Shown in pieces: positions 18,261 through 55,028 of a stretch of DNA of 64,000 bases; the stretch's first letter is position 1, and every line of letters begins with the position of its first letter. Source of the DNA: Clavelina lepadiformis (taxonomy: Eukaryota > Chordata > Ascidiacea > Aplousobranchia > Clavelinidae); assembly GCF_947623445.1 (NCBI RefSeq), contig NC_135245.1, positions 20,405,501-20,469,500 on the forward strand. The letters are read 5' to 3'. Both the position numbers and the translations under genes were made by a program. Under the pieces are notes generated by a model. The model saw nothing but the letters and a program-made list of their open reading frames with translations. It was not told the DNA's origin and made no database searches.

Positions 18261-19903
18261 CTATTTTGCCGTCATCATACTGACAAATTCTAAGAAAAAG
18301 AAATTACGTAACAGGGATGGGAACAATTCGATCCTAACGGTACCCTGCGCCGGTTTAACTACTATCGAGGTCAAACGGGGTCGTTCCTAGCAACCCAGAT
18401 GACCCCAAGCGTGGTTGATGTCGATGGCAGAGAACGGAGAGAGCGCATTTATTGATCCGGTTTATTTGGGAAATATTAAGGGAACATTTATTGCGGCAGA
18501 TCTACGTCAATATGCACTGGACTCGCTATCGATTGTTTCATTGTGATGTCACTGACACCGTTTCTATCAATGTTTTCTAAAGTAATCGAGACCTTGTTTA
18601 AATAAATACATCAACGATTTGTCCATATTGTCGATATTGTCCGCCTTTATACGGTGAAAACTTCTCGAATTACCAAAAGTGAAATATTTGTGCTGGAAAC
18701 CTCTTAACCCAACATGCTTAAATCGAAAGCTGTATTAAGGGCAATTGACTCCACCTTAATCTTCAATATACAAAGTCATGTTTAACATTCACAGCGAGGT
18801 AGTCATGAAGCTAAAATATACCCTGCAATTTGACAAAGATATACTATTACGTCACACAAGACTTTTGACGATGTCTTTACTGAAATCTAGAATATTCAAA
18901 GCAGCACAAAATACCTTCATAATTAACTTGACCGTCTCCGTCAACATCTGCTTCTCGAATCATTTCATCAACTTCTTCATCTGTTAATTTCTCCCCGAGG
19001 TTCGTCATCACATGACGTAATTCGGCAGCAGAAATGAAGCCGTTGCCGTCCTAGGAGGAATACATTTCAAATTACGTAGCTTTTTAACAAACCATTTCAA
19101 AATTATCTACGTTTAAAGAAGATCAAAGAATGTTTTCATAAGATTTGTTTGTCGTTATGACCGAATAATGACAATTTTTATCGCTCAATAGATACCCGAG
19201 TGTAGATATCACGTGATTAATGCAACAATGAGGAAAATCTATTCCTAAATCTTTGAAACGATGTTATACAATGCAGACCTCAAATCAGGTTCAAGTTTTG
19301 TTCGGCTTTACAGGACAAGTTAAATAGATTCACCTTGTCAAAAACTCTGAATGCTTCCCGAATTTCTTCCTCGCTGTCTGTGTCCTTCATTTTTCTCGCC
19401 ATCATGGTGAGGAATTCTGGAAAGTCGATTGTTCCGTTGCCATCGGCATCTACTTCATTGATCATGTCCTGTGGTGAGAAGATTCATCTCATCAACGTTG
19501 CACGTATAAGTGACGTCAAGCACGTGACCAGCACTTACCTGAAGCTCAGCCTCGGTGGGGTTTTGTCCGAGTGACCTCATAATAGTTCCAAGTTCTTTAG
19601 TTGTGATTGTGCCATCGCCATCTTTGTCGAACAAGGAAAACGCTTCTTTAAATTCTAAAAATGGACAAAAACATCTAAATAGTGACAAGACAATAAGTTG
19701 CACTGGGGCATGTTTACATCCATAGAAATCATACCTGCAATTTCTTCTTCGTTCAGTTGATTTGCCTGCAAAGATGGTAAACATTTTTACACACTTTATC
19801 AAACTGAAGTGATAAACAAGACATCAACATATGTTACATAAGAAATAGTTTTGCAAGAACCCATGGGAGCAGTTTACCCAACAACCTCTACAGCACTTAC
19901 CAT
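18261..19903 (-). CDS. CALM: Calmodulin A (near-canonical, 6 exons)
   Basis: Four-EF-hand calcium sensor. Exons: 19903-19901 (ATG only), 19765-19735, 19654-19539, 19468-19334, 19050-18915 and 18289-18261, giving 149 aa ending [10 protein letters not shown], close to the canonical EEFVQMMTAK. The calcium loops [36 protein letters not shown] and [12 protein letters not shown] are all intact, as is the central [12 protein letters not shown] helix. The N-terminus is unusual: [10 protein letters not shown] in place of [10 protein letters not shown]. Its last intron is long (625 nt). A cryptic in-frame terminal exon at 18886-18852 would end [12 protein letters not shown] prefer the 18261 exon because it restores the family C-terminus. 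Alone among the eight copies, A lacks the shared 3'UTR block, so it may be the oldest or independently regulated member. Confidence 0.93.
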
Positions 19904-22291
19904 TTGGTGTTGGTTTTAATGCTGTCCTTTTCAAAATTGGCCTAAAATTCTTAATTACTGCAGGCACCAGCTATCGTGCTACTTTCTCTATATTAAGTAC
20001 GCGGCAAAATATGATCACAAAAAAAATGCACTGCCCAACAATAACTTGCATCGGCATTATAGGTAAGTTATTACAACAGTAGTGTAACTATAAGCACACG
20101 AATATTATTTGATTGTCAAAGTTTACTTATTTAACATGTGTAGTTGGCAACCATTAGCCTAGAAAATAGCAAGAAATACGACGCCAATTGAAGAATTCTT
20201 GAAAAAATCTCGAAATTTTACGTATTTCTTTCAAAAATCTCTCCACAAAATGAAATATTCAAACAGTGACGGAGTTTTTCAACTCTTGCAAGCAAAGCAC
20301 GGCCTTGATCGATGGCTGCGATCGACTTTTCGATCTTTGAGACGCAGAATAATTTGAAGCTGTCTCACATGTTAATCTCTGTCTATCCTAACACAACAAT
20401 AGAGCGAGATATAAATGTGCCAGCTCACTCTAATAAGTTATGGCGAAGAATACCGTCGCTGTACAATTCGTTTCAGTTCGTAAGTTTGCGATTCAGTAAC
20501 TAACAGAGATGCATTCGCAAGTTTTCCGGACGTTCCTTGACTGACTTGAACCAAGAAAGAACGACCCTTTCATATCTCTCAGTCTCAGCCCTTTCATTAT
20601 AACGAGCCGTTGTATCGATTTCGGTGCTTTCCAATACCGCATTACTGTTAACGAGCAACCGGCACTCTGGATGCAAATGTCGTACAGGTCTGAGTCTTAC
20701 CGCATTGGTTGATTGACTGCTTATGTTGTCTTGTGATGGTGATGCTTCAGGCCTGACTGCTGGCAACTGTCTCTTTGAAGGTTTTGCTGTCAAAGTTATT
20801 GGTGCGGGAAATATTTTGTTGAGAAACCTTGATTTTTAACACCAGCTACTTAACGTTTGATTTCATTGCGTCGATTAAATCGATTCTACGGTATTGTATC
20901 TCATCTCCGTGGTGAATAATTGTCCTTTTAATCATGGTCGTTGAAATCTTTTCCCATGAGTCTAACTGAAATCTATTTGGTGATTGAACTTGTCTCTGAA
21001 ACCCGATCTGTCGACCTCTGTTCGCACAAACCAATTTTCTTAATCAATAAATCATAAGAAACATGGAACTCGATGCAATCAACAACCCCGCTGGCATGTC
21101 GCACTGTTATTTATGACGTAACAAGGAGGATTTTTTCTTTTAATTTGACCAAGACAATCACATGATTTGCCGGCCTCGATTTGAAGTTTAGGCCAAGTTT
21201 AGGTTTGGGCTGATACGAACCCAGACCCGAGCAGCTTTGGCGAATATCACCTGCTTGGAAGATCCGGGTGAACCCGAATACCAATAATGACGAACCCGAA
21301 TACAAGATTGTTTATATATCTGTCGACTTTGGTGATAATTGTTGATCTACTGTAGTTTGGTGGCTAAGCTAAAAATGAACAATAATTCTTACAATGAAGA
21401 CCATTTGTTAAAGATTTTGCTTCTTCAATCCTAATGTAAACATTATTTTTTGGAAATACAGCAATTTGTTTAGCTATCGCGTCATTGTATAAGCGAGATT
21501 TGGCAACTTTTGTATGAAATTGTATCGTTTGATCTCAAGTTAATACGAATTGATACTGTTTATTGGAAGCTTCCAGTAACGTGTCAACCAACTGCTTCGA
21601 AACTACTTTTAACTCGAGGTGACACGTTTCTACATCAAGAAAAAAGTATTGCCATCACCGAAATAAGCTCAAACTAGCTGAATTATTTCCCCTTAACAAT
21701 AAGTAGTCGCATCTATTCTACGCTTTACTAAATACGGTCTTGGTGATTTCCCATCGTTGATAGTTTTGTTGTTGCATCAGATTCGCGAAGACAACAGCGA
21801 TTGAAGCGTATAGGATACGATTTCTTTTCGCCCGTGCTCGACTGAGTTAGCTTCAACAAGGTGAAAAAATCGTCACCTACAAGCGGGAAAAACGTCGTCC
21901 CTCAACGCTTCAACCGCTGTTTTCTAAACGAATGGGGTAATTACTGTTCATCTTATTGCTTTGATGAAGTTATTGTGGGTGTCCTGACACAACTGATCGC
22001 AGTGTAGTTTATTGAACAAAATATAAGATCATATTCGTTACACGGCAAATGTATAACGTTGACTTTATAGAAAGCTTCGATGCCCAGATGAATACCAACC
22101 TCAAGATAACTCGGATTGTACGAAAGATGCCAAAGAAATCAAACGAGTCTGTTTTTTCAAGGACTTATTTGAAGGAGTGAACAAACACAAAATACGAGAG
22201 TAAGTTACATGTTTAAGCGTGAAACGATTTGCCACGATTCTATTAACTTACCAACAACTTTTCCAGGAAAATTAACAACTTGACAAAACTT
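19904..22291. other. Intergenic region upstream of calmodulin A
   Basis: It contains the promoter and 5' leader of gene A. No further gene is established. Open stretches on the minus strand at about 20500-20800 and 20850-21030 look protein-like, but joining them breaks the frame (see rejected items). Confidence 0.4.
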
Positions 22292-53692: not shown

Positions 53693-53846
53693 TTTCAGTT
53701 AAGCATCGGCAATTACTATCACTAAGACCAGCATGGATATAAATGTAAATTTGTAAAATTCAAAACTGGCAAATCGTTGGAATGGGGACAGGAGCGATTG
53801 CAGCACTTTCTGACGTCACAATGCAGAATTGAATATGAAATATCGC
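53693..53846 (-). repeat. 3'UTR block of gene H (proximal half only)
   Basis: About 150 nt from the stop codon of H to TTTTCAGTTAAGCATCGG. It is nearly identical to the B, F and G blocks over its length, although the coding sequence of H is strongly diverged. Confidence 0.8.
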
Positions 53847-55028
53847 TCACTTGGCTTTCATCATTCTGATGAATTCTGGAATATCATGACATCATATATT
53901 GTTGCGTGCAAAAAAAAGAACAGCTCAGATCTACCTTCACAATAAATTTTCCCCTCCTGGTCCGCGATGTCCTGAATCATTTCCTCTATTCCTGCAGCTG
54001 TTGGCTCGTCGTCAATGATCGTCATCACATGACGTAATTCAGCAGCAGTGATGTAGCCTTTGCCTTCCTAGAAACAATAAACTTCGAAGCTGAACTAATA
54101 CAGCGAATTGGAGTTAGTTGGACGAACCGAACACAAGGCAGCACTTCTAAGCAAATTAACAAATATAATACGTTTAAGAAACAAGTCAAAGGCAGCAAAT
54201 CAAGCAATCTTGAGACAGGAGCAAATTTTTTCTTCTTAAATTTGCTACGACAAAACCTGATGATAAAAACTTATGTAGCACCATTACTCAATCACAATCC
54301 ATTGATTTGCACAAAACTGTGACAAACTTTACAATCTTAGTTTTGGCAACGTCATCGGCACCAAAATAACTTTACCGTATCAAATATTTTGAAGGCTTCA
54401 CGAATCTCTTCCTCACTGCTCGTGGATTTCATTCTATTCTCCATTAAATCAAGAAAATTTGGAAGGTCAACTTTCCCTTTTCCCTCAATGTCCAGCTCAT
54501 TGATCATGTCCTGTGGTGAGAAGATTCATCTCATCAACGTTGCACGTATGAGTGACGTCAAGCACGTGACCAGCACTTACCTGAAGCTCAGCATCGGTGG
54601 GGTTTTGTCCGAGCGACCTAAAGAGTCTGCCAAAATCGTTAGTTGTGATTTCGCCATCGCCGTCTTTGTCGAAAACGGAAAATGCTCTTTGAAATGCTAG
54701 AAAAATGGTAAAAAATGTTATTAATCTGAAGAAATAGACTCGATTGAAGTCAGCAAAGGAATGACTCGGTTAGGTGACAATCATGAAGTACACGGGCGAA
54801 TAATCAATTGTGATTTTATTCCGATACTATTTCAGACAAACGTTTCTTGAAAGTTAAACAAAATTGTATTTACCACTCATTTGCTCATCTGGTAACCGGC
54901 CACCAACCTGTAAAGGAATTGGAGTAGTGAAAGATACGAGCAATTTGTTTAACTTGCGAGTTATCATCGAGCAAGTTAAACAATTTTATCATAGATTCAC
55001 TCACCGATTTAGTTTCTCGGTTTTGCAT
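53847..55028 (-). CDS. Calmodulin-like H (6 exons, highly diverged, moved start)
   Basis: Exons: 55028-55005, 54907-54874, 54696-54581, 54510-54376, 54067-53935 and 53875-53847, giving 156 aa in frame. The ATG next to the first donor in the other copies is TCG here. An upstream ATG created in the former leader gives MQNRETKS, in phase with exon 2 ([11 protein letters not shown], one codon longer than in the others). EF1 [12 protein letters not shown] ends in Asp. EF2 [12 protein letters not shown] lacks acidic positions and Glu12. EF3 [12 protein letters not shown] has Lys at position 5. EF4 [14 protein letters not shown] carries the same one-codon loss as G. Helices are also diverged, but [18 protein letters not shown] and [10 protein letters not shown] show the origin. 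All splice sites are canonical, so it is probably a functional, poorly calcium-binding relative. Confidence 0.82.

Follow-up and report, generated by a model that had tools for sequence, protein, structure and literature searches.

A graded array of eight calmodulin-type genes with shared intron and 3' modules in the ascidian Clavelina lepadiformis

Chromosome 6 (C6) of the colonial ascidian tunicate Clavelina lepadiformis (genome ~209 Mb) contains an array of eight calmodulin-type genes, here called A to H, at positions 18261-55028 of the 64,000-nt stretch that we analysed (C6:20405501-20469500, hereafter the window). We read this array, with a probability of about 0.72, as a Clavelina-specific tandem expansion of calmodulin in which A, B and a further, more distant gene, I, are constrained, the divergent copies are partly retained, non-coding modules have been exchanged among copies, and one copy, E, shows no detectable constraint. 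Multi-gene calmodulin is already known; the present case would be a lineage-specific expansion of calmodulin-like genes whose non-coding modules have been homogenised piece by piece.

All eight genes have six exons and an open frame when exact splice junctions are required, and their introns are GT-AG without exception (40/40), which confirms an earlier note on this DNA that had described eight intact six-exon genes of the same architecture. The graded series proposed in that note is likewise borne out (Table 1): A and B are canonical, C, D and F have all four EF-hand loops (EF1-EF4), E is without EF2 and EF3, G is without EF4, and H has lost most. The identities given for whole proteins are to a vertebrate-type calmodulin sequence. 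By length and loops (148-149 aa, four canonical EF-hand loops), A, B, C, D and F are classed as calmodulins and E, G and H are not. When a published threshold of >90% similarity to human calmodulin (PMC6171432) is applied as identity to the vertebrate-type sequence, the calmodulins are A (95.3), B (98.0) and I (92.6), with C, D, E, F, G and H all below, from 88.6 down to 56.5. The Pfam EF-hand pair was found in E, G and H, the three array proteins scanned out of eight, and the best 60 of 279 matches of H to PDB, the only one of the eight proteins searched there, are all calmodulins or constructs holding calmodulin. Exon 1 of H, read by eye, is 24 nt long, against 3 nt elsewhere, resulting in an N-terminal extension; apparently the original start codon was lost and an ATG in the former 5' untranslated region (UTR) is used instead. 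A one-codon deletion and a similarly ruined EF4 are common to G and H, which group with support of 94 in an exon-5 tree but are not grouped by exons 3 and 4.

Gene I lies ~354 kb away from gene A and shares the architecture of the array genes. In a genome search with the calmodulin exons, every match of at least 70% belongs to an array gene or to gene I (among 84 matches listed; counts from this search are lower bounds). The next-best matches listed are a single-exon, full-length gene on C2 (62%) and pieces of 66-67% on C3 and C5. The intronless C2 gene encodes ~150 aa at ~61% identity, with a degenerate EF1, and is probably a retrocopy.

The first of the shared modules is intron 3. In A, B, C, D, E, F and H this intron measures 68-72 nt, and full-length identity is 86-99% in all 21 pairs. 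In every pair except C-E, the alignments of introns 2 and 4 exceed those of shuffled sequence by no more than ~0.1, and those of introns 1 and 5 by no more than ~0.2. Pooled mismatch is 0.055 for intron 3 (21 pairs, 7 genes), 0.110 for four-fold sites of exon 3 and 0.353 (187/529) for those of exons 2 and 4-6; A and H differ at 1/70 positions of intron 3 and at 6/7 four-fold sites of exon 4. Gene G has its own 384-nt sequence as intron 3, of which approximately the last 23 nt are retained from the shared element, and in gene I, where intron 3 is 749 nt long, the last 46 nt match the element at 90%. Genome-wide, the intron gave 8 matches among those listed, all of them in calmodulin genes (seven array genes and gene I). 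The closest pair, C and E, is split by intron 3, which in E is of the longer A/B/H type and in C of the D/F type, with discordant variants at columns 16, 33-35 and 42. Since these variants cut across the gene tree, exchange has probably acted, and we suggest that short-tract gene conversion probably shaped intron 3; constraint may have operated alongside it.

One alternative is that purifying selection, acting on some regulatory or splicing element, and not gene conversion, is what preserves intron 3 and the end of exon 3. Persistence of the element at the end of intron 3 in both I and G is consistent with such selection, as is the low synonymous mismatch of exon 3 (0.113, vs 0.27-0.28 in exons 4-5; codon permutation p=1e-4, with 7/136 circular windows as low). 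There is a possible parallel in the four calmodulin genes of the abalone Haliotis discus hannai, in which exon 3 holds 1/54 substitutions (PMC6171432; the part of the text available does not state the exon borders). The variants discordant with the C-E pair would nevertheless demand exchange or parallel change, and the intron folds no better than shuffled sequence (z=-0.08 for the one copy folded) and has no Rfam match, a result by which we also rejected a structured RNA as such. On balance we place selection in lieu of conversion somewhat short of even odds.

Other interpretations of intron 3 were tried and rejected. A mobile introner is not indicated, there being no copies outside calmodulin genes among the matches listed, in a search that skips very common words. 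The frame stays open throughout intron 3 of A, B and H, with a similar tail, but in-frame stops within D, E, C and F dispose of coding read-through common to all copies. A palindrome resembling the cAMP response element (CRE), TGACGTCA, occurs in intron 3; with 25 occurrences in the window against 1.02 expected, and presence in 44/60 further loci of this genome (many overlapping the window), it is not a signal special to this intron.

The second shared module is found at the 3' end of the genes. In B and E it spans ~310 bp, starting at the last codon and ending at an AATAAA; the versions in C and F are shorter. The modules of B, C, E, F and G are 95.5-97.7% identical, while synonymous differences per site in exon 5 of the same genes amount to 0.28-0.57, except for C-E (0.04). 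The partial module of H, taken together with exon 6, is 96.6% identical to E across 205 bp. Gene A, which has its own 3' end, and gene I are both without the module. At the point in the E copy that corresponds to the orphan piece upstream of C (Table 1), just 8 bases separate the flanking blocks. A genome search returned 18 pieces at 16 places, a lower bound: eight in the array (seven genes and the orphan) and eight outside, of which seven are on C4 at 19.476-19.560 Mb and one is on C1. All eight outside modules stand behind the final exon of a CCCH zinc-finger gene (Pfam zf-CCCH), in the same orientation, and the seven that were aligned match the calmodulin versions at 76.6-79.6% identity. 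Because the differences are scattered randomly and covariation is almost nil, a function common to the calmodulin and CCCH 3' ends is no more than possible.

As to the nature of this 3' module, a dispersed transposable element was rejected, as all 16 places listed, a lower bound, sit in the array or beside CCCH genes, and so was a conserved RNA structure (two-sided change in 1/25 predicted pairs, no Rfam match). Block-wise constraint fared no better, with differences between the calmodulin and CCCH consensus sequences randomly placed (longest run 23 vs 22.2 shuffled, p=0.39). A related CCCH gene on C6, 84 kb beyond the window, was considered as the source and rejected, no copy being present within ~2 kb 3' of it. 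Three segments beyond H resemble the C4 and C1 CCCH loci, with hardly any other matches among those listed, although the last of them also has one match of 79% on C8; the genome lists for these segments are incomplete, with one C4 match listed vs four loci at 66-69% by direct comparison. Given that these segments are common to the CCCH loci, the array flank and the C4/C1 CCCH loci probably share a genomic history. A search of the window for remains of a CCCH protein gave no convincing match (best E 1.1). Elsewhere, C7:3.48-4.00 Mb holds 29 CCCH zinc-finger matches, and 14 consecutive ones are spaced by 4128-4129 bp, which marks a long tandem array of a different gene.

Selection on each copy was estimated with a codon model written for this analysis (F3x4, branch-specific omega, i.e. 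dN/dS) on a star tree that joins C with E and G with H; two further topologies, including a resolved tree, and separate fits of the N-lobe and C-lobe were also run. A single omega was rejected in favor of free ratios (twice the log-likelihood difference 54.9, 10 degrees of freedom, p=3e-8). On the star tree the branch omega is 0.065 for I, 0.065 for A and ~0 for B (A 0.14 and I 0.07 on the resolved tree), and 0.32, 0.35, 1.02, 0.50, 0.24 and 0.38 for C, D, E, F, G and H, respectively. An omega of 1 was there rejected for I, A (p=6e-10), B (p=6e-7), D (p=0.005), H (p=0.0009), G (p=0.033) and the C/E stem (p=0.002). The rejection persists in the other topologies for D (p=0.009, 0.006) and H (p=0.001, 0.0005), and for G in two of three (0.053 and 0.0001 in the other two). 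For the C-lobe alone it was found for D (p=0.0002), F (omega 0.32, p=0.034) and H (p=0.003). Judged by sequence, A, B and I count as true calmodulins, and purifying selection on them is strong; D and H are held by selection as well, along with G in two of three tests and F in the C-lobe only. The 'specialised sensors' of the earlier note are thus a reasonable reading for these four genes, each to the extent just given, and not for E, which evolves at a neutral rate, while nothing found here favours its 'decoys'. The note's question of whether C to H are neutral by per-copy dN/dS has a correspondingly divided answer, with neutrality unrejected for C.

It is important to note that several results weigh against a partial retention of the divergent copies. 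Over the whole gene, omega=1 was unrejected for F in all three topologies (p=0.088, 0.15, 0.092) and never rejected for C in the three (star tree p=0.18, short branch). In the N-lobe alone it was unrejected for C, D, E, F, G and H, the lowest p being 0.057 (H), and in the C-lobe for C (0.33), G (0.15) and E (0.077, where omega reached its upper bound). The tests moreover use paralogs from one species with ongoing exchange, which violates a single-tree model. The weakness of the N-lobe result, where the omega estimate for D hits its upper bound, is to be expected in part from the depressed synonymous change of exon 3, which inflates N-lobe omega. On the stem of G and H, omega=1 was unrejected (p=0.28, star tree).

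These same results bear on a second alternative, in which C to H are mostly dying duplicates of a birth-and-death process, with frames open by youth, and only A, B and I matter. The neutrality of E and the whole-gene results for C and F would fit, as would the fairly young age of the array, with synonymous divergence (NG86 dS) of 0.24-0.41 between B and C, D, E, F or G, and 0.81 between B and H. It is difficult to reconcile with the rejections of omega=1 for D, H, the C/E stem, G and the C-lobe of F, or with H, which at 56.5% identity still has every splice site and an open frame, and we regard it as unlikely.

Gene E deserves separate treatment. It belongs to an inverted duplication whose other half contains C, and the two genes diverge by 8.7% in exons and 8.4% in introns, 28/39 of the exon differences being nonsynonymous by a parsimony count. 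Since the split, E has acquired 24 nonsynonymous and 7 synonymous changes, where a neutral simulation expects 22.8 and 6.8, and omega=1 was unrejected for E in all three topologies (star tree p=0.97). Because E has been indistinguishable from neutral since its split from C, we consider it probably a young decaying copy, and not the decoy that had been proposed. Of the usual marks of a pseudogene, the neutral rate is seen and frame disruption is not; the open frame is weak evidence either way, because the start was kept and the frame stayed stop-free in 30% of the neutral runs. Speaking against a wholly unconstrained E, exon indels number 0 in C and E together vs 3.4 expected if both were neutral (P=0.03; the expectation is smaller for E alone), a small hint of its frame being kept.

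Ascidians can be highly heterozygous. Nevertheless, it is very improbable that C and E, or any other copies, represent haplotypes that the assembly kept as separate loci, given that the two stand inverted on one gap-free stretch with the divergence and share of nonsynonymous changes given above. Curation of the assembly, as described in the part of its report available, also took out 9 haplotypic duplications (PMC10884593).

Returning to a partly retained expansion, we hypothesize that A, B and I would carry out the housekeeping calmodulin job, and that D, H and probably F and G would serve as calmodulin-like sensors or adaptors with an altered calcium response, as the rules for EF-hand loops suggest. 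D and F would combine four kept loops with changed surfaces. G, which has lost K115 and Met51, is predicted to bind calcium via EF1-EF3 only, and H, with at best a weak EF1, to be a nearly calcium-insensitive adaptor, on the usual EF-hand loop rules and the usual list of target-face methionines and K115. The divergent copies would probably be used in particular tissues or stages, and the shared 3' end would give B to H a common post-transcriptional behaviour. Exchange would keep introns and 3' ends alike, with the divergent C-lobes not erased. It is tempting to go further and to see a system in which lobes diversify by mutation and conversion keeps exon 3, intron 3 and the 3' end common so that new sensors stay co-regulated, the sensors and the CCCH genes (presumably RNA-binding) forming one post-transcriptional regulon, but we consider this a long shot.

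That calmodulin usually has few genes, as the earlier note put it, is broadly right, with multi-gene sets known from the abalone and Ciona. The four abalone genes have five exons, are 94-98% identical to human calmodulin and have unchanged loops (PMC6171432). As in Clavelina, one invertebrate thus has several near-canonical calmodulin genes, its paralogs share intron positions and phases, and exon 3 is nearly free of substitutions; unlike in Clavelina, the UTRs are dissimilar among paralogs and the introns differ, as far as the available part of that paper tells (PMC6171432). The ascidian Halocynthia roretzi (Yuasa 1999, as cited there) has duplicated calmodulin too, but as two genes with the five-exon structure of the abalone, vs the six-exon genes of Clavelina. 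At least four calmodulin genes of Ciona show preferential expression in a single larval cell type, the contractile papilla axial columnar cells, according to the portion of PMC7397655 available, which makes no mention of lost loops; by their gene model names these genes lie on different chromosomes or scaffolds, vs the single array of Clavelina. No description of the Clavelina array was found among the literature matches listed, which comprised titles and abstract openings, with subscription papers mostly outside scope. Calmodulin-like proteins with altered loops and tissue-specific use, such as CALML3/5, Androcam and the CML families, occur in animals and plants, and none is known to be arranged as eight graded neighbours that share a homogenised intron and 3' end.

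The remainder of the window was surveyed more briefly (Table 1). To the left of the array are a retroelement copy with a reverse transcriptase frame (Pfam RVT_1) and exon pieces of a CaMKK-like kinase, a calmodulin-dependent kinase adjoining the calmodulin array; their sole PDB match at 1e-20 is CaMKK2 (6cmj, E=1e-24), and the single 118-aa frame scanned gave no Pfam match. Within the array, a direct repeat of ~570 bp (88.5% identity) occurs between F and G and again upstream of G, and intron 4 of F contains 6.5 tandem copies of the 10-mer TGACACGTCA. The right flank holds a Foie-gras/Gryzun gene, which we take to be TRAPPC11-like, and a Sec1-family gene.

Table 1. Features of the calmodulin-type array, its flanks and related loci. 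Positions are those of the window unless a chromosome is given; percentages for genes are identities to vertebrate-type calmodulin (CaM).
Feature	Position	Strand	Description
Gene A	18261-19903	-	canonical calmodulin, 95.3%, 4 loops intact
Gene B	22609-23931	-	canonical calmodulin, 98.0%, 4 loops intact
Gene C	28876-30087	-	calmodulin-like, 88.6%, 4 loops intact
Gene D	34340-36232	+	calmodulin-like, 85.9%, 4 loops intact
Gene E	38859-40061	+	calmodulin-like, 79.2%, EF2 and EF3 lost
Gene F	41570-42931	-	calmodulin-like, 84.6%, 4 loops intact
Gene G	48740-50563	-	calmodulin-like, 83.1%, EF4 lost, one-codon deletion
Gene H	53847-55028	-	calmodulin-like, 56.5%, 156 aa, most loops lost
Gene I	C6:20067179-20069214		same architecture as array genes, 92.6%, four loops, 150 aa
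Intron 3 of A	19469-19538	-	conserved element
Intron 3 of B	23379-23448	-	conserved element
Intron 3 of C	29518-29585	-	conserved element
Intron 3 of D	35117-35185	+	conserved element
Intron 3 of E	39364-39435	+	conserved element
Intron 3 of F	42254-42321	-	conserved element
Intron 3 of H	54511-54580	-	conserved element
3' module of B	22304-22613	-	last codon to AATAAA
3' module of C	28589-28878	-	
3' module of D	36238-36334 and 36337-36401	+	two pieces
3' module of E	40057-40366	+	
3' module of F	41313-41569	-	cut at 3' end
3' module of G	48434-48743	-	
3' module of H	53688-53851	-	partial, 164 nt, 95% to B
Orphan 3'-module piece	31368-31439	-	72 nt, upstream region of C
Inverted C/E duplication, C half	28589-31800		
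Inverted C/E duplication, E half	36746-40363		
Segments beyond H	55882-56008, 56878-57089, 58426-58763		similar to C4 and C1 CCCH loci
Intronless calmodulin-like gene	C2:21350595-21351044		probable retrocopy
Direct repeat	44778-45340 and 50867-51429		between F and G; upstream of G
Tandem 10-mer	41996-42060		intron 4 of F
Reverse transcriptase frame	5979-7070	-	retroelement copy
CaMKK-like exon pieces	11037-11899	-	
Foie-gras/Gryzun gene	59259-62642	+	
Sec1-family gene	63094-63999	+	

Few known proteins are as constrained as calmodulin. A series within one genome that passes from near-unchanged through half-lost to nearly calcium-free, with an estimate of selection for each copy, supplies variants with which to ask which function needs which lobe. 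Coding and non-coding sequence in this array behave in opposite ways, a pattern that resembles piecewise concerted evolution, and a 3' end common to two unrelated gene families presents a testable case of UTR exchange.

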